Assembly (NCBI RefSeq): GCF_913063105.1
Contig: NZ_CAJXYQ010000009.1
Span: 1 to 64,000, forward strand
DNA length: 64,000 nucleotides
Source: an uncultured Draconibacterium sp.
GTDB lineage: Bacteria > Bacteroidota > Bacteroidia > Bacteroidales > Prolixibacteraceae
Direction of reading: 5' to 3'
Shown: one piece after another, positions 1-23,310 of the stretch
How positions within the stretch are numbered: the first letter of the stretch is position 1
Layout of the letters: every line of letters starts with the position of its first letter
Position numbers and translations under genes: made by a program
Notes under the pieces: generated by a model
Database searches by the model: none
What the model was told of the DNA's origin: nothing
The model's input: only the letters and a program-made list of their open reading frames with translations

Positions 1-332
1 ATTCTTTTTTCCTGTCTGTCATAAGTTGCAATATTAAATGTTTTAAACTTATAGACAGAGTTTATTTTACAGTCTCCTATAATTTGAAAAAACTCCTAAA
101 ATTTGAGCAAAAACAAAGAAAATCGATGGCAATGGTTGCCATTTTGTTTTTACCATCGAATAACCACAAAACAGACCTCAAAAGAAGCCTTTTCCCGGCA
201 CCAATTTTCCTGAACTAAAATGGATCGCCTATAAAAATGATGGCCTTAAAATGCTTTTTTGCACCTCGTTAATCAATAAAATTCTCTAAAAAAGGAGTTG
301 TGCATCAGCTACCTGTGTTACCAAACGTTTTT
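1..332. other. AT-rich non-coding stretch at window edge
   Basis: No open frame with plausible coding character is seen on either strand. The last ~35 bases look like the right half of an attC-like site (separate entry). The rest could be the degraded body of that site or the end of a cassette outside the window. Confidence 0.4.
288..322 (-). repeat. right half of a degenerate attC-like site
   Basis: The stretch ends in GTTACC followed by AAACG. It pairs with GGTAAC preceded by the complementary CGTTTG-like bases at 949-959, on the other side of the 200-aa gene, as expected if both boxes belong to one cassette. No matching left stem arm is found in bases 1-288, so the site is incomplete or decayed. 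Confidence 0.4.
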
Positions 333-935
333 TCATTTTATCCAAAAATCTTCCAGTGGAAATTCAAAAATTTTGTACTTACCATCATATTTCTCAATTA
401 TTGAGATATTATAACTCCAAGCACTATCAAAAGCATTCTCAGATTGTAAACTGAAAATCTCAGATGTATCTTTTTTCTCTATTAATTTAATTAATGGGTC
501 AAAGTCTTGGAGTATAGAAAACTCAGTATTGGAAAGATATTTTGGAGTGACTTTTAATACTGATAATGTATCATTTTTAACTTTAAAATTTTTCAGTTCA
601 AACTTTCTTTCATATCTGAACTCGTTTCCATTTTTATCCCAAATTCTACCATTTGAAAATCCAGTCTCTAAGTCATATCCACTTATTATGAATAAACTGT
701 CAATTACCGTAAAGTCAGTTTTATATTTCTTTTTTATTATTGAAAGAACTTTCTCCAACTCCGAGATTCCAGAATTAATTGTCTCTTTTGCCTCGGAGTC
801 AAGGGATTTTGGATTTTCTTTTTTTATTCTTTCAACCCGATATTTTCGGATGGTATCAAAGATTTCCTGTCCATTAGTACATTGAGCACCAATTGTCAAA
901 ATAATGGTAAGTAATATTAAAATCTTCGTTTTCAT
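333..935 (-). CDS. hypothetical secreted protein, cassette gene A
   Basis: A 200-residue protein of unknown function. Residues 1-22 are a signal peptide (Lys-containing start, Leu/Ile-rich core, cleavage likely after CTNG), so it is exported to the periplasm or outer surface. The Cys at residue 19 is not in a standard lipobox, so a lipoprotein is less likely. The mature part is Lys/Glu/Asp-rich with predicted alternating helix and strand, and no motif I recognise. It sits alone between two attC-like boxes (GTTACC at 317 and GGTAAC at 954) and has the array orientation, which is typical of integron cassette cargo. No paralogue lies in the window. Confidence 0.7.
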   Translation of the reverse strand: MKTKILILLTIILTIGAQCTNGQEIFDTIRKYRVERIKKENPKSLDSEAKETINSGISELEKVLSIIKKKYKTDFTVIDSLFIISGYDLETGFSNGRIWDKNGNEFRYERKFELKNFKVKNDTLSVLKVTPKYLSNTEFSILQDFDPLIKLIEKKDTSEIFSLQSENAFDSAWSYNISIIEKYDGKYKIFEFPLEDFWIK

Positions 936-953
936 TCTTCTTTCAAAATGTTT

Positions 954-1129
954 GGTAACGTTAATAATATGAGCAGTAGTGGACTTTTAAGCGGTTTCGT
1001 GTCAAGTTGCTAAGTAGCCAAAGCTGCACCTTAGCTAAATAGTCAAATCGACAGATTTGGCGGGGCTGATTAGAACTACTACCGCCCAAATAATCACAGA
1101 AACCGCTATTGCTTATATTTATTGTTAGC
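954..1129 (-). repeat. attC-like recombination site 1
   Basis: An imperfect palindrome of 176 bp. The left end is GGTAAC and the right end GTTAGC. The left stem arm (969-985, AATATGAGCAGTAGTGG) matches the reverse complement of the right arm (AATATAAGCAATAGCGG) at 14 of 17 positions. Two of the three differences are G/A, five bases apart. A second pairing inside (AGCGGTTTC against GAAACCGCT) extends the hairpin. It lies just outside the 3' end box of cassette B and the 5' end box of cassette A. Confidence 0.7.
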
Positions 1130-1141
1130 ATTTCGTATTTT

Positions 1142-1588
1142 TTATTCCTCCAGCTTCATATGTAAAGTTGGATAAGGTTTTCCTGATGAATCTAATTCTG
1201 AACGTTCAAATGTTCTAAATCCAAATCTCTCATAAAATCCAACTGCCTGTTTATTGTCTTCATTCACGTCAACTTTTGTAACTTTTTGTTCTTTGATTGA
1301 ATATTCTAAAAGTACTTTCCCGATACCATTTCCTCTTACAGCAGGATGTATGAATAACATTTCAAGATTACCATCAGCAACTCCACTAAAACCTATTATT
1401 TCTTCTTTTTCGTTTCTGACGCATCTTAAGTCAACTGCATCAAGGTATGTGTTTAAAATCAAAGGTTTGAAATATAAAATATCCTCTTCTTTCAAAAAAT
1501 CATGAGTTGCTCTAACGGAAGCTTCCCAAACATCTACAACTTCCTGATATTCTTCTTTCTTTATTTTGTCAATTTTTATTTTCGTCAT
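1142..1588 (-). CDS. GNAT family N-acetyltransferase
   Basis: A 148-residue single-domain GNAT protein that would transfer an acetyl group from acetyl-CoA to an amine; the substrate cannot be read from sequence. The acetyl-CoA pyrophosphate loop is visible as RGNGIG at about residue 85, preceded by the strand LEMLFIHP. The C-terminal signature VNEDNKQAVGFYERFGF (about 109-125) is typical of the YjaB/ElaA-like subgroup. Length is normal for the family. It is the only gene of cassette B, flanked by GTTAGCATT at 1124 and its inverse at 1699-1707. GNAT enzymes are among the commonest integron cassette products (established knowledge). Confidence 0.88.
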   Translation of the reverse strand: MTKIKIDKIKKEEYQEVVDVWEASVRATHDFLKEEDILYFKPLILNTYLDAVDLRCVRNEKEEIIGFSGVADGNLEMLFIHPAVRGNGIGKVLLEYSIKEQKVTKVDVNEDNKQAVGFYERFGFRTFERSELDSSGKPYPTLHMKLEE

Positions 1589-1701
1589 TATTTCTTCTCT
1601 TTATTTTCAACTTATTATTGGTACAATATGCTTTCTCAAACACATGTCGTTTCCGTCTGTAATTATTTATCTATGCTTACTTAATTCTACTTAATATGAA
1701 T

Positions 1702-1892
1702 GCTAACGGTTGGTGCAAGTGGAGTGCGGAGCTTTGAAACGGCAACTTGTCATGTTTGCACGGAGCCAAGCCGGCGTAGCACTAAATTTTGTTTTTTATT
1801 ACCAATCCGTCAACGACGGATTGGCGGTGGTTGAACAGGGCGAAAACGCAGGAATACCCAGCCAGTCCGCATTACATTTGCACTTTGTTACC
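1702..1892 (-). repeat. attC-like recombination site 2
   Basis: A 191-bp imperfect palindrome with the clearest architecture of the series. Left box GCTAAC, spacer GGTTG, stem GTGCAAGTGGAGTGCGGA; the reverse complement of the right side reads GGTAAC, spacer AAA, stem GTGCAAATGTAATGCGGA. On the minus strand (array direction) it opens TAACAAA, like Vibrio VCR sites, and ends at GTTAGC of the next cassette. The loop of about 130 bp holds a secondary hairpin (AATCCGTCaacGACGGATT). An open frame that runs through it is not a gene. Confidence 0.75.
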
Positions 1893-2032
1893 GCCTGGTT
1901 TTTATTCTTTTCCAATATCTGTGTATTAAATATTTGATTTTTATATTTCGTGACTTTTCAAATCTTTTCTTGACTAAATTCTTCGCTGTATTTTCGATAG
2001 TAAATTTTGCAACTCACCCAAATTTGTTCTAC

Positions 2033-2137
2033 TCAGATTTTAAAATTTGTTTTTTCTATTAATTCTTTTTTTATGGACTCCAAATAATTATCCATTTCTA
2101 AGGTTTTGAAAATTCCGCCTCGAATTTCAATTACGTT
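2033..2137 (-). pseudogene. out-of-frame C-terminal extension of cassette gene C
   Basis: Directly after the stop of the 156-aa gene, the +2 frame stays open for 34 codons (begins NVIEIRGGIFKTLEMDNY, ends EKTNFKI, stop at 2033-2035). It has no start codon at its beginning but a protein-like composition. One extra A in the AAAA run at 2136-2139 would join it seamlessly to the upstream gene (IKWDK-NVIEIRGG). I read this as a frameshifted 3' end, from real decay or a homopolymer sequencing error. Confidence 0.5.
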
Positions 2138-2601
2138 TTATCCCATTTAATTTTTGTTTCAATTAGATTTAGCAAGATTTTTTGTCCAACAATTTGTATG
2201 CTATTTTCTCTATAATCTATAATTAATTTTCCTCCATGCAGATTAGTAACTTTTTTTAGTTTTGATTTCTTTTCAAATGTTGAAGAATTATTATCTCTAT
2301 TAATTTCTTGGTAGCCTTTCTCAACCAGAATACTTTCAACTTTTTCTGATAAATTTTCAAAATTGGTACTGTTTTTAATCGTCATTATTCCTTTTCTGTC
2401 AACAAGAGGTTGAATTAAACCTTGAGTTAATGGAACAAAAACAAGTATTATCCAATTTCTACTAAATACTTCTTCAAAAGGAGTTTTTAATAAAATGGTA
2501 AATATTAAATATGCTAATCCATTTAACAGAGCGAAAGAAATCAATGTAATTTTAAACATTACAGGAATTGATGCTTTATAATATTTTATTTCAATTGTCA
2601 T
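2131..2601 (-). CDS. hypothetical two-TM membrane protein, cassette gene C (probably frameshifted)
   Basis: 156 residues, function unknown. Two hydrophobic segments lie near the N-terminus (about residues 14-37 and 48-65, split by a short loop with LLKTPFEEVFSRNW). A soluble C-terminal half follows, with helix (ENLSEKVESILVEKGYQEI) and strands, possibly cytoplasmic. The frame ends IKWDKT-stop, but the protein-like sequence continues in another frame for 34 codons, so the intact product was probably about 189 residues. It is the sole gene of cassette C, flanked by GTTACCGCC (1887) and its inverse (2627-2635). No family recognised. Confidence 0.65.
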   Translation of the reverse strand: MTIEIKYYKASIPVMFKITLISFALLNGLAYLIFTILLKTPFEEVFSRNWIILVFVPLTQGLIQPLVDRKGIMTIKNSTNFENLSEKVESILVEKGYQEINRDNNSSTFEKKSKLKKVTNLHGGKLIIDYRENSIQIVGQKILLNLIETKIKWDKT

Positions 2602-2629
2602 CTTTCATTTTTTTTCATTCAAACTTGGC

Positions 2630-2660
2630 GGTAACGGTTACCTGTATGTTTTTGTGGCGT
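2630..2660 (-). repeat. left half of split attC-like site 3
   Basis: GGTAAC, spacer GGTTAC, then stem CTGTATGTTTTTGTGGCG. The complementary arm is not nearby but 1.6 kb away at 4270-4293, whose reverse complement reads GCCAAC, AAA, CTGTATATTTTATGGC. The spacer lengths (6 and 3) and the G/A difference at stem position 7 are the same as in the intact sites, so the two halves belong together. Confidence 0.6.
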
Positions 2661-2874
2661 CGAGCACCCATCCTCGGTGCCACGAAGAACTGTCGTTTCC
2701 GGTTTTATTTTTTAGGGAGGATTTTAATCATCTTTTAGGAAATTGCTTAATATGCATTAATCGATAGTTCTAATATAAAGAAAATATTGAACAATAAGAA
2801 TAGCTTGAATATGTATTATTCAGGCTATTGTTCATATTACAAGACTTAGAAATTCCTAAAGTATATTGCAAAAA

Positions 2875-2901
2875 AAATGCTCTGCATTTTGCAGAGCATT
2901 T
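2875..2901 (-). terminator. rho-independent terminator
   Basis: A perfect 11-bp stem AAATGCTCTGC / GCAGAGCATTT with loop ATTTT. On the minus strand it is followed by a run of T. It lies 149 bp past the stop of the 357-aa gene and is the obvious end of its transcript. Confidence 0.8.
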
Positions 2902-2942
2902 ATATCTACCAAAGATAAACTTTGATTTTAAATCTTTAATTC

Positions 2943-3002
2943 TTAGTCGTGTACAATTTTCATAGCATCTCTTTTTTTCATTACTTCTTCTACAAAATAG
3001 AA
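2943..3002 (-). pseudogene. possible 3' remnant of a minus-strand gene
   Basis: Nineteen open codons (FYFVEEVMKKRDAMKIVHD) end 42 bases before the terminator at 2875-2901. The composition is protein-like, but there is no room for a start beyond an internal ATG giving 12 residues. It could be the tail of a deleted gene or chance. Confidence 0.2.
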
Positions 3003-3049
3003 CTATTTAAGTGATAAATGCAAATGTTTTATATATTTTTTGCAAATAT

Positions 3050-4123
3050 TTAATCTTTAAGACCAATAATAGCACTTAATCCAAAACCTGGTTCAACCCA
3101 ACCGGCACAAATAACATCTACTTTATTATTAGGAGTTTCGTTAATCTTGATAGAAGCATTTGCCGAGAATGAATCTATTTTCTTTACGATTATGCCTTGG
3201 TCACATCTAATTCTCATTGTTAACGTATTTATTGGAGATAAGTTTTTGTAAATTAAATTATGCCAATGGTCATTTCCATATTCTATTGCAGACCTTTCGA
3301 TAATAAAGCTATCCAATTTATTAAATTCTTCAGGAACTTCACATATCCCCATTTTATTTACAGAACTATCTTCACTTATATTTTTATTACAACGGGGGTC
3401 ATCCTTATTAAGTATTTTGTATTCTCCTTCAATAACTTCTCCATCTGCAGAGTAAAACTTAACTTGTTCAAAAGAATCATCTTCATTTTCAAGACCAGTT
3501 TGGAATGGCTCATGCTTACCATGAAATTTATAGGTTCTATATCTAACTTTAGATCGACAAGTGACTACTTTCTTTTCTTCATCAAAAAAACAGAAAATAT
3601 CTATGTTTAAATCGCTTCGAAAAGGGCGTTTGAACATTTTCAAACCTTTTTCAATAAAGTTCTCAAAATATTTTTCAGTTGGTTTATAAATATTTGCCAT
3701 TTCAATAGAAGGTCTGAATACTTCTTTTGCTAATTTCTTCTTTTCACTTTCAGCTAATCTTTCTACATATTCAGACGATGACATTTTGTTAATTATTTTT
3801 TCATTTATGAACTCAAGAAAATTTTGAGTACCAATCACAATTGAAAAAACACCTGAAATAATTATTGCAGTACCCGATGTAATAAATAACTGGACAAGTA
3901 AATTAAAGAAGGTTGTACATTTTATAAAGTTTAGAACAAGAGTATCTTCTTCTATTGGTTGAATATCAATTATTAGCCCAATAATAACTAATAAGATTCC
4001 AATAATGAACATGAATACAACTGAAAATTGTTGAACAAGTGAAAGATTTTTTTTCTTTTTTTTATTTTCTATTTTTTCCTCTTTAACTTCTTCTTTTTTA
4101 TTTCCTTTTTTAAGTCCAAACAT
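3050..4123 (-). CDS. hypothetical membrane-anchored protein with two N-terminal TM helices
   Basis: 357 residues, family not recognised. Residues 1-27 are an extremely Lys/Glu-rich cytoplasmic tail. TM helices lie at about 33-54 (VVFMFIIGILLVIIGLII) and 75-97. A charged helical linker (100-150, EKIINKMSSSEYVERLAES) leads to a soluble, strand-rich C-terminal domain (about 165-357) containing CFFDEEKKVVTCRSK. Both termini should be cytoplasmic. It is the only gene in a 1.6 kb insert that splits attC-like site 3, and has its own strong terminator. Base composition is as AT-rich as its neighbours. Two-TM sensor/effector proteins of this shape occur in defence islands, but no catalytic motif supports that here. 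Confidence 0.7.
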   Translation of the reverse strand: MFGLKKGNKKEEVKEEKIENKKKKKNLSLVQQFSVVFMFIIGILLVIIGLIIDIQPIEEDTLVLNFIKCTTFFNLLVQLFITSGTAIIISGVFSIVIGTQNFLEFINEKIINKMSSSEYVERLAESEKKKLAKEVFRPSIEMANIYKPTEKYFENFIEKGLKMFKRPFRSDLNIDIFCFFDEEKKVVTCRSKVRYRTYKFHGKHEPFQTGLENEDDSFEQVKFYSADGEVIEGEYKILNKDDPRCNKNISEDSSVNKMGICEVPEEFNKLDSFIIERSAIEYGNDHWHNLIYKNLSPINTLTMRIRCDQGIIVKKIDSFSANASIKINETPNNKVDVICAGWVEPGFGLSAIIGLKD

Positions 4124-4257
4124 GATTAGTTTATTTTGTTGATAAGGTAAAAATAATAAAATTTATTGTTTGTTTATTTCGCCAAAATTTCAATCGGTTT
4201 TGCAAAAACCGAAGCGCGTCGGCAAAAAAATAGAACCTACCACTACCTTGTCATTGA
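4124..4257. other. upstream region of the 357-aa gene inside the insert
   Basis: AT-rich leader of the minus-strand gene, followed by GGTTTTGCAAAAACC (a 6-bp arm hairpin at about 4194-4210) and GC-richer bases that resemble the loop of an attC body. No gene seen. Confidence 0.3.
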
Positions 4258-4293
4258 AATACCCAATAGCCATAAAATATACAGTTTGTTGGC
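4258..4293 (-). repeat. right half of split attC-like site 3
   Basis: Reverse complement reads GCCAAC, spacer AAA, CTGTATATTTTATGGC. It pairs with the left half at 2630-2647 and not with any sequence in the 130 bases just before it. It is followed by GGTTTTTATTCTT, the same flank seen right of sites 2 and 5. Confidence 0.6.
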
Positions 4294-4381
4294 AACTGGT
4301 TTTTATTCTTTAAAGCGCAATAGTGAAAGTTTCTTATTAATTTATATTTCACGATTTGCGCTTTTTAAACTTGTTGCCAAC
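4288..4381. other. geneless attC-bounded cassette
   Basis: Bounded by GTTGGCAAC (4288-4296) and its inverse GTTGCCAAC (4373-4381), so by its boxes it is a separate cassette, but it is only ~90 bp. In place of a gene it holds a long hairpin: AAAGCGCAA and GTGAAA on the left pair with TTTCAC and TTGCGCTTT on the right, around an AT-rich loop. Confidence 0.5.
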
Positions 4382-4504
4382 GGTCTCGGCTATGCGTAGT
4401 GCGGGATTTTAAGGCACTTTCCTTTCCGTTTAGCAATTAGTTTATTTAATGTAAATACTTTCATATCAGCACTATTGCCCACATTACGTATAGCCATTGT
4501 TAGC
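4376..4504 (-). repeat. attC-like recombination site 4
   Basis: A 129-bp imperfect palindrome. Left: GCCAAC, GGTCTC, GGCTATGCGTAGTGCGGG. Reverse complement of right: GCTAAC, AAT, GGCTATACGTAATGTGGG. It differs at G/A positions 7 and 12 and at one C/T. The right GTTAGC box overlaps the stop codon of the SRPBCC gene. Confidence 0.75.
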
Positions 4505-4919
4505 GGCTGGCTTTCTTTATTTCTTTAGTTATTTTATCCATCTTTTCATTCCAATACTCTTTCATTTCGGCTCTCTGATTGAAATCGGTAAGTTTTTCTT
4601 GGTGAAAACTGATTAGCGTTCTGTTTTTACCCTTTCCGATTACCCGAACTTGTACGGTGGACATATTTTCCCATTCTTTCTTTTTCCAATTCATTCGAAT
4701 GTGCGAATTTGGCTTAAAGACACGTACAAGTCCGTTAATTCCATCTTTGGTTCGGTATTCTTTTTTTAATTCAAGAGATTTTACAAGTTCGCCAAGCCAA
4801 ATTTTCAGACCAGCATCCGAAAACATAAAGTCCCAAGCTTTTGGTTCTGAAATGGGAAATGTTTTTTGAAGACCAAATTGAAATCCCACATCTTTTGTTT
4901 TGCCTACTGGTTTTGCCAT
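4500..4919 (-). CDS. SRPBCC/AHSA1-like domain protein
   Basis: 139 residues forming one START/Bet v1-type (SRPBCC, AHSA1 subgroup) hydrophobic-pocket domain: N-terminal strand with helix AWDFMFSDAGLKIWLG, central strands (GLVRVFKPNSHIRMNWKKK), TVQVRVIGKGKNRTLISFHQEKL, and C-terminal helix MKEYWNEKMDKITKEIKKA. The family binds lipophilic ligands or acts as a stress co-chaperone domain; the ligand here is unknown. First gene, in array sense, of nothing: it lies 10 bp downstream of the RidA-like gene, and both share cassette F. Its stop codon lies inside the R-box of attC-like site 4, so the last codons are contributed by the cassette boundary. Confidence 0.8.
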   Translation of the reverse strand: MAKPVGKTKDVGFQFGLQKTFPISEPKAWDFMFSDAGLKIWLGELVKSLELKKEYRTKDGINGLVRVFKPNSHIRMNWKKKEWENMSTVQVRVIGKGKNRTLISFHQEKLTDFNQRAEMKEYWNEKMDKITKEIKKASR

Positions 4920-4929
4920 TCTGTATCAT

Positions 4930-5340
4930 TTACTGTTCGGGTAAGAAAGCAATTGCATCTATTTCTATTAAAAAATCAGGATTTACAAGTCCTGCGACAA
5001 AAAGTACAGTGACTATCGGTTGATTTGAGTTTTGTCCTAAATATTTTTGAGAAACTTTAAATCCCATTCGAGCATCTTGACCCTGCACGATATTAATGTT
5101 GAGTTTGACAAGATTGTCAAAAGTAGCTCCGCAAGCCTTTAATGCTATTTCCAAATTTTTCATTACTTGTTCAGTCTGTGTAGCGATATCGTTTTTACCA
5201 ACAATTTCGTGATTTTGGTCAACTGAGTTTTGTCCACCAATATAAATTGTCTTTCCGTTTCCCTGGGTCATAACGATTTGAGAAAAGGCTGGGCTTTTAA
5301 AAAGTCCATCTGGATTTATATGTTGATTTCTACTTTCCAT
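4930..5340 (-). CDS. RidA/YjgF-family protein lacking the catalytic Arg
   Basis: 136 residues of the RidA (YjgF/YER057c/UK114) fold, a trimeric family whose archetype hydrolyses reactive enamine/imine intermediates from PLP enzymes. Family marks: IYIGGQNSVDQ (about 30-40), TQTEQVMKNLEIALKACGA (54-72), VKLNINIV, and the C-terminal IEIDAIAFL. At the position of the essential Arg (usually ARS in the PARSxVxV segment) this protein reads QPIVTVLFV, so imine deaminase activity is unlikely; it belongs to one of the Arg-less subfamilies. It is co-transcribed with the SRPBCC gene in cassette F. Confidence 0.85.
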   Translation of the reverse strand: MESRNQHINPDGLFKSPAFSQIVMTQGNGKTIYIGGQNSVDQNHEIVGKNDIATQTEQVMKNLEIALKACGATFDNLVKLNINIVQGQDARMGFKVSQKYLGQNSNQPIVTVLFVAGLVNPDFLIEIDAIAFLPEQ

Positions 5341-5372
5341 AATTTTATCGCAGTTGTTTTTTTCAGCTTGCT

Positions 5373-5492
5373 GCTAACGGTTAATTGAATGTATAGTTAG
5401 ACAATGGATTATTAAAATAAAAGTTAAACCAAATCGAATTTTAGCAGACCGTTCATTTGTTTAAGGTCTAATTATATATTCAAGTTGTTATC
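5373..5492 (-). repeat. attC-like recombination site 5
   Basis: A 120-bp imperfect palindrome. Left: GCTAAC, GGTTAA, TTGAATGTATAGTTAGAC. Reverse complement of right: GATAAC, AAC, TTGAATATATAATTAGAC. The 18-bp arms differ only at positions 7 and 12, both G/A. Confidence 0.78.
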
Positions 5493-5595
5493 ATTCGGTT
5501 TTTATTCTTCACCATTATGAGAAAATTTATAAAGAATATTAAGTACCTTTTTAAAAATGACTTGGAGAGTAAATTTGACTCATGTGATAACAATT

Positions 5596-5820
5596 CTATT
5601 TCGTTGTCAAGTTTGAATTCTTCCAAAGCGAGATTTCGTCTATACGGTGCCCCTTTGATAGGTCGCGAACAATGATTTTTCTTTGACGTTGTATTTCGTC
5701 GTTAAACAACTCTATATCTTCTTTGTCTATGCTGAAATTTATCAATGCATTTATTCTTGCTTCAATAGATAAAAGCATTTCAAGTATTAGGCTTAGATTC
5801 TCGGTTTCTTTTTCGTTCAT
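5596..5820 (-). CDS. hypothetical small helical protein
   Basis: 74 residues, no family recognised. Residues 5-33 form an amphipathic Leu/Ile-rich helix (LSLILEMLLSIEARINALI). A charged stretch with QRQRKIIVRDL follows, so a small dimeric coiled-coil protein is possible. Start ATG at 5820. It lies in the array direction just inside cassette G (GTTATCATTC at 5487) and is divergent from the tiny plus-strand ORFs that begin 19 bases upstream. Confidence 0.55.
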   Translation of the reverse strand: MNEKETENLSLILEMLLSIEARINALINFSIDKEDIELFNDEIQRQRKIIVRDLSKGHRIDEISLWKNSNLTTK

Positions 5821-5823
5821 AAT

Positions 5824-5862
5824 TTTAAATTTTAGTCTATGGAATCTAATCGTAAAGAATCA
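5824..5862 (+). repeat. 39-bp direct repeat, copy 1
   Basis: It matches 6006-6044 with one mismatch. It contains an AT-rich leader (TTTAAATTTTAG), the start codon, and the first eight codons (MESNRKES) of a tiny ORF. Confidence 0.85.
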
Positions 5863-5955
5863 GATAGATTTGATGGTGATTTTGGTGTGTTTTTATTTAT
5901 AAGGGTTTTGTTTTTGATATCATTGTGTTCTACATTGTTTTTTTTGCTAACATAG
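5839..5955 (+). CDS. tiny single-TM ORF 1
   Basis: 38 codons: a charged start MESNRKESDRFDGD followed by one hydrophobic segment of ~22 residues (VFLFIRVLFLISLC...). It begins in the repeated 39-bp block. Plus strand, against the array direction. It could be a membrane micropeptide (small toxin-like or regulatory) or the reading of a non-coding repeat; the shared leader and the N-terminus conserved in copy 2 favour translation. Confidence 0.35.
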   Translation: MESNRKESDRFDGDFGVFLFIRVLFLISLCSTLFFLLT

Positions 5956-6005
5956 TACGAAATACAAAATCCAAGTATTGGTAATATAATAGCAGTTATA
6001 ATACA

Positions 6006-6044
6006 TTTAAATTTTAGTTTATGGAATCTAATCGTAAAGAATCA
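6006..6044 (+). repeat. 39-bp direct repeat, copy 2
   Basis: Second copy of the block at 5824-5862; it again supplies leader, start codon and MESNRKES. Confidence 0.85.
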
Positions 6045-6143
6045 ATATCAGATAAAGAATCATTTACTGGCACAGAGCTTTTTATAATGTGGTTAATTGC
6101 ATTTTCTTCTGGTGCATTATCTATGTGGCTTGTTGTTGGATGA
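6021..6143 (+). CDS. tiny single-TM ORF 2
   Basis: 40 codons: the same N-terminus MESNRKES as ORF 1, then ISDKESFTGTE, then a hydrophobic segment (LFIMWLIAFSSGALSMWLVV) up to the stop. The downstream halves of ORFs 1 and 2 differ in sequence but keep the same topology: charged N-terminus, one TM at the C-terminus. Confidence 0.38.
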   Translation: MESNRKESISDKESFTGTELFIMWLIAFSSGALSMWLVVG

Positions 6144-6180
6144 CTATTGAACAATTATTGCTAATAAAGGGATTACTACT

Positions 6181-6264
6181 ATGCTGATAATTTGGATTAT
6201 AGGATTTTTTGCAAGCTTATATATGATATTGCTTGGAGCAGGTGTTTTTGACATTGACGAATAA
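6181..6264 (+). CDS. tiny single-TM ORF 3
   Basis: 27 codons, almost all hydrophobic (MLIIWIIGFFASLYMILLGA), ending in an acidic tail VFDIDE. It is third in a head-to-tail series of four, 37 bp after ORF 2. Confidence 0.3.
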   Translation: MLIIWIIGFFASLYMILLGAGVFDIDE

Positions 6265-6279
6265 TAAATAAATTTAATT

Positions 6280-6378
6280 ATGCTTTCAGAAAAAAAAATA
6301 AAAGACATAGTTGAGACAATTATATGCTCAATTGTTGGAATTTTTATAGTGTTTTTGTTCTTATGGCTTACAAAATAG
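6280..6378 (+). CDS. tiny single-TM ORF 4
   Basis: 32 codons: MLSEKKIKDIVE, then a hydrophobic segment (TIICSIVGIFIVFLFLW) and LTK. It starts 15 bp after ORF 3, preceded by AATTTAATT. Its 3' end overlaps the convergent 100-aa gene by 18 bp. Confidence 0.33.
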   Translation: MLSEKKIKDIVETIICSIVGIFIVFLFLWLTK

Positions 6379-6663
6379 GCTGTTTACACAAGCGCCTATT
6401 CCTGCTATAATTACTGCATATATTAATTTTAATATCCAAGACGGAATATTCATCTTATATATTATCTTTTCCATAAAATTACAATCACCAAGTTCATCCC
6501 AACCCAATAGTTCAAAATCACAATAATACTTGGGGCTTGGATGGGATGATATAAAATCTTCTTTTTCATCTTTTCTTATTATTTGATATTGCTTTTGATT
6601 TTCCATTAAGTTACCTCGCCACACAGGAATAAAATAAGCTCTTATTAGTTTATTATATTTCAT
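6361..6663 (-). CDS. hypothetical tail-anchored membrane protein
   Basis: 100 residues; a start at the internal Met20 (MENQKQYQI) would give 81 and removes an odd basic leader. The soluble part carries CDFELLGWDELGDCNF with two Cys. One TM helix near the C-terminus (about 76-96, LKLIYAVIIAGIGACVNSLF) makes it tail-anchored. Family not recognised. It is the last gene, at the array 5' end, of cassette G and converges on tiny ORF 4. Confidence 0.55.
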   Translation of the reverse strand: MKYNKLIRAYFIPVWRGNLMENQKQYQIIRKDEKEDFISSHPSPKYYCDFELLGWDELGDCNFMEKIIYKMNIPSWILKLIYAVIIAGIGACVNSLFCKP

Positions 6664-6966
6664 TTTGTCTTTATTATTATTTTAACTGAATGATAATTGT
6701 GTTTTTTACAACTCTATTCCAATCCTTATTTCTCATTGCCATCCTTTTTAGTTTTGAACTGAATGATAACTACTGTGTATCATCATTGTTGTTATATCGC
6801 TTATAGCGTTATTTCTTATTGTTGTTATACACCCAAATAGGTGTGGAAAGAACACATATTATGTTATTAATGCTTTTTCGCTTTATTTTAGGGCCGGTAT
6901 ACAATGCTTGTTTGTTTTTGGTGCCTTAAATGTAAACATCTTATGTTTAAAAAGCAAGGCAAAACA
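6664..6966. other. outer boundary region of the cassette array
   Basis: It contains two related boxes, AACTGAATGATAAT (6680-6693) and AACTGAATGATAAC (6757-6770). The second matches the inverse of GTTATCATTC at 5487 and closes cassette G. No complementary right stem is found after it. A frame open from about 6771 has a hydrophobic start but no start codon and is not called. Confidence 0.4.
6757..6790 (-). repeat. left end of a sixth, incomplete attC-like site
   Basis: Reverse complement begins GTTATCATTCAGTTC, matching GTTATCATTCGGTTT right of site 5, as expected for the two ends of one cassette. The bases after GATAAC do not follow the GGTTNN spacer rule and no partner arm is seen, so the site is decayed or the array ends here. 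Confidence 0.35.
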
Positions 6967-22110: not shown

Positions 22111-23310
22111 ATGTTAAAGTCAAAACTCAATCTCCATTTATATAGTTTGTTGTTGGTAATTACTCCGTTTCTGTTGCTTCAAAACTACTTACAGGATGCA
22201 ATAGGGGAATTGTCACGACTAACCATAAGTATTTTCAACTTTGAAATTAAAATAATGCTGGTACTGGTAGCAGTGGTTAGTATTGTGCTCATTTATTTGG
22301 TAATAAAAAATTTATCGCCAGGCAGAGTATTTGGTGTATTGTTTGTCGGACTTCTGTTATTTGTTGGCTACAATACAAGCGATTTCTACTTTAATCATCA
22401 CTTTTACGATATTCAACACAACTGGCATTATTTTGCTTATGCCATTTTCTCGTTGTTGGCATGGAAATACTATTTTCAACAAACACATAGTGCCGAAAAA
22501 ACTATTTTGCGAACTTTCTTGTTAGCCCTGATTTTGTCGCTATGCGATGAAGTTATACAGGTTTTTATCTCAAGCAGGGTATTTGATTTGTCTGATGTTG
22601 CTAAAGATTTATGGGGATGTATGATTGGTCAATTTGTCATTCATTTTATTCTTTTTGATATGAAATACCTTACATTTAAAAAATTCTGGCAAAGAGGGAT
22701 TAAAAACTGGATCAGGAATGGTTTGTTTTTACTAACTCTTGAATTATTTTTTGCCTGGATTTTCTTAAATGTATCTTCCATATTATCAAATGCTATATAT
22801 GTGTTACCTGTAATTCTGATTACTTTTGTTGTATTCTTTGCAGTTGCGTTTGTATTTCAATTAGTGGGTAATTTAAGGTATCGCAAACTTACTTTAGGCG
22901 TAATTGGTTGCGGGTTTTTAATCGTATTTTTTACTTTTTTGTTTTCAGAACCAGATTTAGCAAGTAAGCATAAAAACCTTGTTGTTTATAAAAATATTCC
23001 CATTTTATATTTTGATGTAATGATTTTTCCAGATGGAATGGTAAGACCTGTTGACAAAAAGGTAGCTTTTAATAGCCGAGACAAACAAAAGATTAATTCA
23101 ATAGGAGCAGATATTGTTATTTTAGGTACCGGTTCAAAAGGTAAGGGCGGAAAAGGTTATCAAGACCAGGTTCCTGTTGAAATGTGTTATAACCACGAGA
23201 AAAACAAAGTTTATCAATTGATTAAGTTGCCAAATGAAGAAGCCTGTGTTTTATTTAATCGTTTAAAGCAGGAAAATAAAGAGGTATTAATGATAATGCA
23301 TAACTCATGA
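22111..23310 (+). CDS. VanZ-like multi-pass membrane protein
   Basis: 399 residues with about 8 TM helices in residues 10-280 and a soluble C-terminal domain (about 295-399). The VanZ-like core is visible: HNWHYFAYAIFSLLAW, then CDEVIQVFISSRVFDLSDVAKDLWGC, matching the D/E-x-x-Q...R-x-x-D-x-x-D signature of the family. VanZ homologues give low-level teicoplanin resistance in Gram-positives; in Bacteroidota their role is unknown. The C-terminal domain (VYKNIPILYFDVMIFPDG) has no match I recognise. Its stop overlaps the start of the next gene (ATGA), so they are co-translated. Confidence 0.75.
   Translation: MLKSKLNLHLYSLLLVITPFLLLQNYLQDAIGELSRLTISIFNFEIKIMLVLVAVVSIVLIYLVIKNLSPGRVFGVLFVGLLLFVGYNTSDFYFNHHFYDIQHNWHYFAYAIFSLLAWKYYFQQTHSAEKTILRTFLLALILSLCDEVIQVFISSRVFDLSDVAKDLWGCMIGQFVIHFILFDMKYLTFKKFWQRGIKNWIRNGLFLLTLELFFAWIFLNVSSILSNAIYVLPVILITFVVFFAVAFVFQLVGNLRYRKLTLGVIGCGFLIVFFTFLFSEPDLASKHKNLVVYKNIPILYFDVMIFPDGMVRPVDKKVAFNSRDKQKINSIGADIVILGTGSKGKGGKGYQDQVPVEMCYNHEKNKVYQLIKLPNEEACVLFNRLKQENKEVLMIMHNS

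Follow-up and report, generated by a model that had tools for sequence, protein, structure and literature searches.

The described systems closest to the locus studied here are the IntI integrons, e.g., class 1 integrons and the superintegrons of Vibrio, and the clusters of attC sites lacking a neighbouring integrase (CALINs). Shared with them are an attI site, a cassette array, attC sites in the form of imperfect palindromes and a presumed recombination inside the triplet GTT. The two ends of an IntI cassette are complementary to each other. For the Bacteroidota, integrons are on record in the phylum list of PMC8618304, and in the accessible part of the IntegronFinder 2.0 paper a single complete integron is named for the Bacteroidetes (in Salinibacter), where earlier there was only In0. 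According to the accessible text of PMC9668308, IntI detection there requires the IntI-specific domain. Here, we analyse a stretch of 64,000 nucleotides from an uncultured Draconibacterium sp., called the window in the following, which is the start of contig NZ_CAJXYQ010000009.1 (C9; the contig begins at window base 1). It carries a cassette array that is very probably one of several arrays of an integron-like system, which would be run by a chromosomal tyrosine recombinase encoded on another contig. Judged from the nucleotide sequence, cassettes of this system are bounded by GTT and have complementary ends, what follows near-identical attI flanks as the first cassette varies between two genomes of one species, and three genera have one cassette in common.

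The array is headed by an attI-like site (6755 to 6880, minus strand, or more narrowly about 6767 to 6868) with a predicted crossover inside GTT, the G of which is at position 6770, and with two direct TATAACAACAAT repeats; it was delimited by its copies on contigs C13, C14 and C3 and by a same-species homology ending at 6767. The cassettes behind it all lie on the minus strand. In each of them, the bases that follow GTT at the cassette start complement those that precede AAC at its other end, with a variant particular to that cassette. From attI on, the pairs are GTTATCATTC and GAATGATAAC in cassette 5 (5378 to 6769), GTTAGCAGC and GCCGCTAAC, with one mismatch, in cassette 4 (4381 to 5377), GTTGGCAAC and GTTGCCAAC in cassette 3 (2635 to 4380), GTTACCGCC and GGCGGTAAC in cassette 2 (1707 to 2634), GTTAGCATT and AATGCTAAC in cassette 1 (959 to 1706), and GTTACCAAA and TTTGGTAAC in the last cassette (317 to 958).

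This rule was counted on cassette ends as defined by a covariance model, R1, which is described below. The count comprises 83 sites (80 with a readable R'' box, 75 with a readable R' box), 51 pairs of neighbouring sites and seven positions per pair; where AACAAC occurs, the AAC nearest the model position was taken. Four sites of locus L201 were included, while a weak window match at 22942 (13.7 bits) and two matches in L202 were left out. At least six of seven positions match in 43 of the 51 neighbouring pairs, in 15 of 233 non-neighbouring pairs of the same array, and in 1 of 71 cases when the two boxes of one site are compared. The observed mean of 5.92 was reached by none of 10,000 permutations, the highest of which gave 3.24. 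Excision of a cassette circle with the cut between the G and the TT would place both end boxes in one hairpin.

The second line of evidence comes from the attI copies and from a comparison of genomes, in which "same species", "order" and "class" are the labels given by the genome search tool. A stretch of about 100 bases located 3' of the recombinase gene on C13 is a 98% copy of the window's attI, and further copies are found on C14 (93%) and twice on C3 (82% and 81%), which makes five in this genome. On C3, the two copies stand in tandem 2.5 kb apart (L045, 4308 to 6920), and by eye the second seems to interrupt the preceding attC. The first 9 kb of the window were searched against 140 genomes of the family, 81 of which match, with two places scored per genome. 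The comparison with the same-species genome G649 took in three of the five attI loci, namely those in the window, on C13 and on C14. For the window, flank and attI are 98.97% identical over 2234 bases up to position 6767, which is the A of GTTA; at the recombinase locus on C13, 98.07% identity over 2023 bases ends at L043:7946, again the A of GTTA. The C14 locus matches in both flanks (98% and 97%) and in attI (96%), and from a cassette GTT on, a stretch of 985 bases is 99.9% identical. The first cassette differs, with genes for a methyltransferase, a CAAX protease and a DUF6544 protein in one genome and a 412-aa (amino acid) protein in the other. The attI match at this locus extends to L044:2850, 19 bases beyond the G, because both boxes begin alike. 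The cassette common to both strains at 99.9% (L224, 7696 to 8680) encodes a 120-aa protein with a small gene before it; the protein resembles a PemK/MazF-type toxin, and toxin-antitoxin cassettes occur in chromosomal integrons.

A further cassette is shared over a larger distance. The last window cassette recurs in two other genera, in G694 at 89.3% (645 bases), where it follows an attC, and in G690 at 87.4% (650 bases), where it stands directly at attI. The shared cassette is bounded at its GTT. Both relatives continue into an attC, which the window copy lacks, and the gene-end flank of the window is 74% identical in G690. An all-against-all blastn of 51 loci and the window gave no shared cassettes with matches of at least 250 bases; closer relatives did share them. 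Cassette gain or exchange at attI, as known from integrons, is what these sequence breaks point to. The gene order is not conserved, as the same-species genome has a different array directly behind attI. One might instead assume dispersed palindromic repeats, of the repetitive extragenic palindrome (REP) or miniature inverted-repeat transposable element (MITE) kind, or terminators between ordinary genes that are moved by homologous recombination. Many genomes of the family contain sequences that match the S2 stretch at 71-91% identity and could indeed recombine, but such repeats predict neither complementary cassette ends nor GTT breaks behind attI. On the strength of the end complementarity and of the same-species breaks at GTT this explanation was rejected, and we leave it next to no probability.

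The sites themselves were modelled without the help of the window. A stem finder, run on 80 recombinase loci and four pieces of the own genome, gave 68 candidate sites on both strands, of which 39 from 13 loci (plus strand, length 111-125, own-genome sites excluded) were used for training. L080, L112, L118 and L157, which are unlike the rest, and L096, where the contig end cuts the site, were left out by hand. The resulting covariance model R1 comprises sites from other organisms only, the window and the own-genome sequence being excluded. Beyond the features that the finder demands, C precedes GTT and an A follows ten bases past that G in 39 of 39 training sites; within the stem, 37 of 39 place an A opposite a C, and 27 of 39 do so at a second position. 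Classical R boxes are scarce: GTTRRRY is found in 4 and RYYYAAC in 2 of the 39 training sites, and GTTRRRY in 1 of 10 own-genome sites.

In the window, R1 matches S4 best (4371 to 4510, 102 bits, E 3e-19), followed by S1 (949 to 1135, 46.6 bits, E 1.1e-7), S5 (5368 to 5498, 46.1 bits, E 1.5e-7) and S2 (1697 to 1898, 31.5 bits, E 1.7e-4). These are four of the five palindromes which the original prediction, made from the bare sequence, had placed on the minus strand; all five are present at the positions it gave, and its right-hand box GTTRNC is true of each. The fifth, the split palindrome S3, is a mixed case: its arms (around 4296 and 2635) pair and carry the right boxes, as judged by eye only, but they enclose a loop of 1.67 kb and R1 does not report the site. 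On the window and the pieces of C13, C14 and C3, the model lists 13 rows, the two weakest with E 0.27 and 0.88. Further copies of the site elsewhere in the genome, which the original prediction had asked for, do exist: at E <= 10 the whole genome yields at least 11 matches (a lower bound, as 150 of 2283 candidates were scored), all of them in the arrays of the window, C13, C14 and C3 or at C34:3342. The latter (C34:3342-3482, 61 bits) is an extra site on a contig for which the attI search gave no copy. A simple hairpin finder, applied to both strands of the window, returned three matches (S2, S4, S5), all within the array; on three random sequences of equal first-order composition, one strand each, it returned 1, 0 and 0. 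Rfam at gathering thresholds has no match in the window.

The same model describes the surroundings of the recombinase in other genomes. At E <= 0.01, R1 has 67 matches in the 80 recombinase loci. On the 3' side of the recombinase and in its orientation there are 62 of them, and the other five have the opposite orientation. The 67 include the 39 training sites, which had been selected for that strand; without these, the fair count is 23 of 28. The same-species genome G649 carries a large chromosomal array, with 13 matches in the 40 kb behind its recombinase. Neighbouring sites are spaced by a median of 870 bases (50 cassettes), and the longest open reading frame (ORF) is co-oriented with the array in 42 of the 50 cassettes and opposite in 3, while 5 have no ORF of 60 aa.

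The recombinase is not encoded beside the window array. None of the 11 places with a PF00589 match in the whole genome is located on C9, in agreement with the original prediction, where no integrase was seen near the array. Among the 11, the highest score against the integron integrase model belongs to the attI-linked protein of C13 (378-385 aa). With 228.2 it is above the NF040815 cut-off of 220, and with 215.3 it stays below the TIGR02249 cut-off of 265; no IntI over the latter cut-off is present in the genome. Its relatives in the PDB are XerC-like and XerA proteins and IntI4, the match to the latter being split in two pieces. About 40 residues that precede the second conserved box in IntIs are missing in the family (four IntIs against six family rows shown); this IntI-specific region is absent in all 18 rows of the family alignment, and the HMM match skips profile positions 182-238. 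PMC8138268 already notes an incomplete conservation of the IntI insertion in the integron-like subgroup treated there. The recombinase tree comprises 121 rows, drawn from 29 IntIs of 30 loci, 67 family members of 70, 22 other relatives of 40 and three own Xer-like proteins, rows without a clear ORF having been dropped. All 29 IntIs lie on one side of a branch with a support of 100/100, and none of the 67 family rows falls inside. The family itself is not one clean group: 64 of the 67 rows stand together (89/96), L095 and L109 are apart at the base, and L106 groups with relatives from other phyla.

These data bear on the simplest alternative, a canonical IntI integron that has lost its integrase, i.e., an ordinary CALIN. 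Layout, hairpin sites, GTT ends and cargo all resemble an integron, and genuine IntIs do occur in the phylum, with 105 of 395 genomes over the cut-off; of 108 genomes matching at E <= 1e-50, one (G234) belongs to the same class. Against this stand the missing IntI in the own genome, an attI-linked recombinase without the IntI-specific region and placed outside the IntI clade by the tree, and the rarity of GTTRRRY and RYYYAAC boxes. In addition, R1 has no match below E 0.09 in 30 IntI loci, which are short and in which the presence of attC is not established; a strict scan of these 30 loci for genuine attC yielded a single candidate hairpin (reported for both strands), which is too few for a model. 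A canonical IntI was rejected on the failed TIGR02249 test, the absent region and the tree position, and an ordinary CALIN appears very improbable to us. Of the original prediction, a candidate CALIN with integron layout, the integron-type cassette array without a neighbouring integrase has stood. The array has its own attI at its head and is therefore more than a CALIN, and it is not canonical, given a recombinase with no IntI-specific region and a position outside the IntI clade, and given sites most of which are without classical R boxes.

A genome-contig scan with an alignment of 18 family members, of which the best 80 of 588 relatives were kept, names Bacteroidales, Flavobacteriaceae, Cyclobacteriaceae, Saprospiraceae and others among the matches listed; from these the phylum was taken to be the Bacteroidota and the class the Bacteroidia. 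At E <= 1e-60, the recombinase is found in 68 of 198 genomes sampled in the order. In a class sample of 247 genomes, with at most 13 candidates scored per genome, sites (E <= 0.001) occur in at least 188 and the recombinase in 134; both are present in 127, sites only in 61, the recombinase only in 7 and neither in 52 (Fisher P 2e-14, uncorrected for kinship). This association speaks to another alternative, in which the cassette system is real, XerC/XerD or a further recombinase acts on it, and the gene beside attI is carried along as a passenger. Candidates for such an acting enzyme are offered by the 11 places with a PF00589 match, and 61 genomes have sites without a family member at E 1e-60. 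A passenger gene sits poorly with sites that lie behind the recombinase gene and co-occur with it, with the downstream DNA of 30 same-order homologues, about 20 of which reach a similar attI-like GTT boundary by eye (the rest being without one, cut short or unclear), and with the attI-linked recombinase in 10 of 10 genomes hand-picked from the family matches to the first 9 kb of the window. We give the passenger a slim chance at best.

Several observations nevertheless weigh against an integron-like system run by the C13 recombinase. Of the five attI copies in the own genome, only that on C13 has a PF00589 match beside it. The 61 genomes without a recombinase match are a sizeable part of the 188 with sites, and the genomes in the co-occurrence count are related. 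Eight of the 51 neighbouring pairs remain below six of seven matching end positions; some of them, but not all, skip an unreported site (e.g., from S4 to S2 in the window). All 16 tested pairs of the training alignment vary on both sides somewhere, a covariation that is partly built in because the training sites were picked for having a stem, by a finder which demands one and slightly favours A-C mismatches. Finally, the preference for the bottom strand, which folds more stably in 45 of 49 sites, is one of calculated folding energy.

Putting these points together, we suggest the following course of events. The recombinase of the system would be the 378-385 aa protein encoded next to the C13 attI, acting without an IntI-specific region. 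It may excise a cassette as a circle and insert it at attI or attC, with the cut falling between the G and the TT of GTT. As substrate it would use the bottom strand of attC in its folded form, because this strand folds better: at the positions of the A-C mismatches in the top strand, it has T-G wobbles. Transcription of the cassettes presumably starts from a promoter located at attI or upstream of it.

The cargo of the window array is of the kind predicted originally: GNAT, AHSA1/SRPBCC and RidA are the Pfam domains found, and five of the eight scanned proteins have no Pfam match. No match to an immunity gene was obtained among these eight, five of which match nothing in Pfam. Cassette 5, delimited by its sequence and the S5 match, holds ORFs of 100 and 74 aa and a 44-nt direct repeat, 93% identical (5819-5862 and 6001-6044). 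Cassette 4 (S4 match, Pfam) contains the RidA (4930-5340) and AHSA1/SRPBCC (4500-4919) genes, cassette 2 (S2 match) a 156-aa ORF (2131-2601), and cassette 1 (S1 match, Pfam) a GNAT acetyltransferase gene (1142-1588). Cassette 3 was recognised from the sequence, S3 being without a model match, and has a body of about 85 bases; the loop of S3 (site at 2635-4300) carries a 357-aa ORF (3050-4123) without a Pfam or PADLOC match and may be a loop insertion or an unusual cassette form. The last cassette, assigned by its relatives in G694 and G690 (87-89%, then attC), keeps a 200-aa ORF (333-935) and the R'' box, while its attC is missing. Other sequence (1 to 316, no strand assigned) replaces this attC up to the contig start, and no pairing arm was seen in it. 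The first cassette on C13, beside the recombinase, is far larger: bounded by GTTACCAGC and GCTGGTAAC, it measures about 6.9 kb (L043, 8083-14866) and holds a multi-gene defence operon with DndC-like, PbeC/DndD-like, DndH-like and part-pAgo-like genes in one cassette.

A relative of the recombinase (52% identity over 86%) is also encoded on a Parabacteroides plasmid, followed by genes for type VI secretion system (T6SS) immunity (Tdi1) and SMI1/KNR4 proteins. This is an array of the recombinase-associated acquired interbacterial defence (rAID) type (L200, 10410-15970), with short intergenic hairpins of about 45 nt and a core C-ATTA, and it follows the cassette-end rule: eight extracted hairpins form seven neighbouring pairs, in which 6, 6, 7, 5, 5, 6 and 4 of 7 positions match, whereas the 49 other pairs average 3.06 and reach 5 at most. 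R1 reports none of these short sites. The original rAID paper of 2019 reportedly may note a likeness to integrons. In the accessible part of PMC12247911, which describes the rAID recombinase, co-oriented genes and intergenic motifs and names the mechanism of biogenesis as an active research area, the word integron is not used. On plasmid pHH1107 (FJ012881; L199, 4052-6110), tet(X3) is immediately preceded by tpnF, which encodes a shortened relative of the recombinase (52% identity over 237 residues). By eye, there is an attI-like GTT boundary between the two genes and a sequence like a left attC arm past the tet(X3) stop. A box complementary to the attI box was sought before tet(X3) and not found, the site finder reports no site in L199, and the boxes match poorly. 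That tet(X3) is a former cassette is a lead only.

It appears that an integron-like gene-capture system is widespread in the Bacteroidota and apparently uses a different kind of recombinase; therefore the system seems to have been overlooked. A description of it was not found in titles and abstract openings of the literature, a search that had subscription papers and most preprints outside its scope. On balance, we lean towards the broader view that the Bacteroidota have a second integron system separate from IntI, in which a recombinase without the IntI-specific region would act on folded attC-like hairpins, several arrays per genome would grow from dispersed attI sites and whole defence operons would travel as cassettes, and which would underlie the rAID arrays of the gut and once have been the carrier of tet(X). 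If this is true, a phylum that is dominant in gut, soil and sea exchanges genes by a major route that has escaped notice. It would then become possible to test whether hairpin recombination needs the IntI-specific region, and the formation of rAID immunity arrays would gain a concrete mechanism.

Compared with the known systems, the C13 recombinase resembles the XerA or "site-specific tyrosine recombinase/integron integrase" family NF040815 in scoring above its cut-off, and differs from it by an N-terminal extension of about 100 residues and by the linked attI and cassette array. The rAID and rAID-1 clusters of gut Bacteroidales have in common with our system a related recombinase, co-oriented genes, intergenic motifs and end complementarity; they differ in their sites of about 45 nt with the core C-ATTA, against CGTTA here, and in their cargo of immunity genes. 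A cluster of attC without a neighbouring integrase, as in a CALIN, is found on C9, but an attI is present and the attC sites are defined by our own model. With the IntI integrons, the system further shares co-oriented short genes, cassette change at attI and large chromosomal arrays. It departs from them in a recombinase that lacks the IntI-specific region, groups outside the IntIs and is encoded by a gene reading towards attI, and in R boxes of the form CGTTR, mostly not GTTRRRY, with A-C mismatches at two places of the top-strand stem. Moreover, one recombinase here apparently serves several arrays, each with its own copy of attI.

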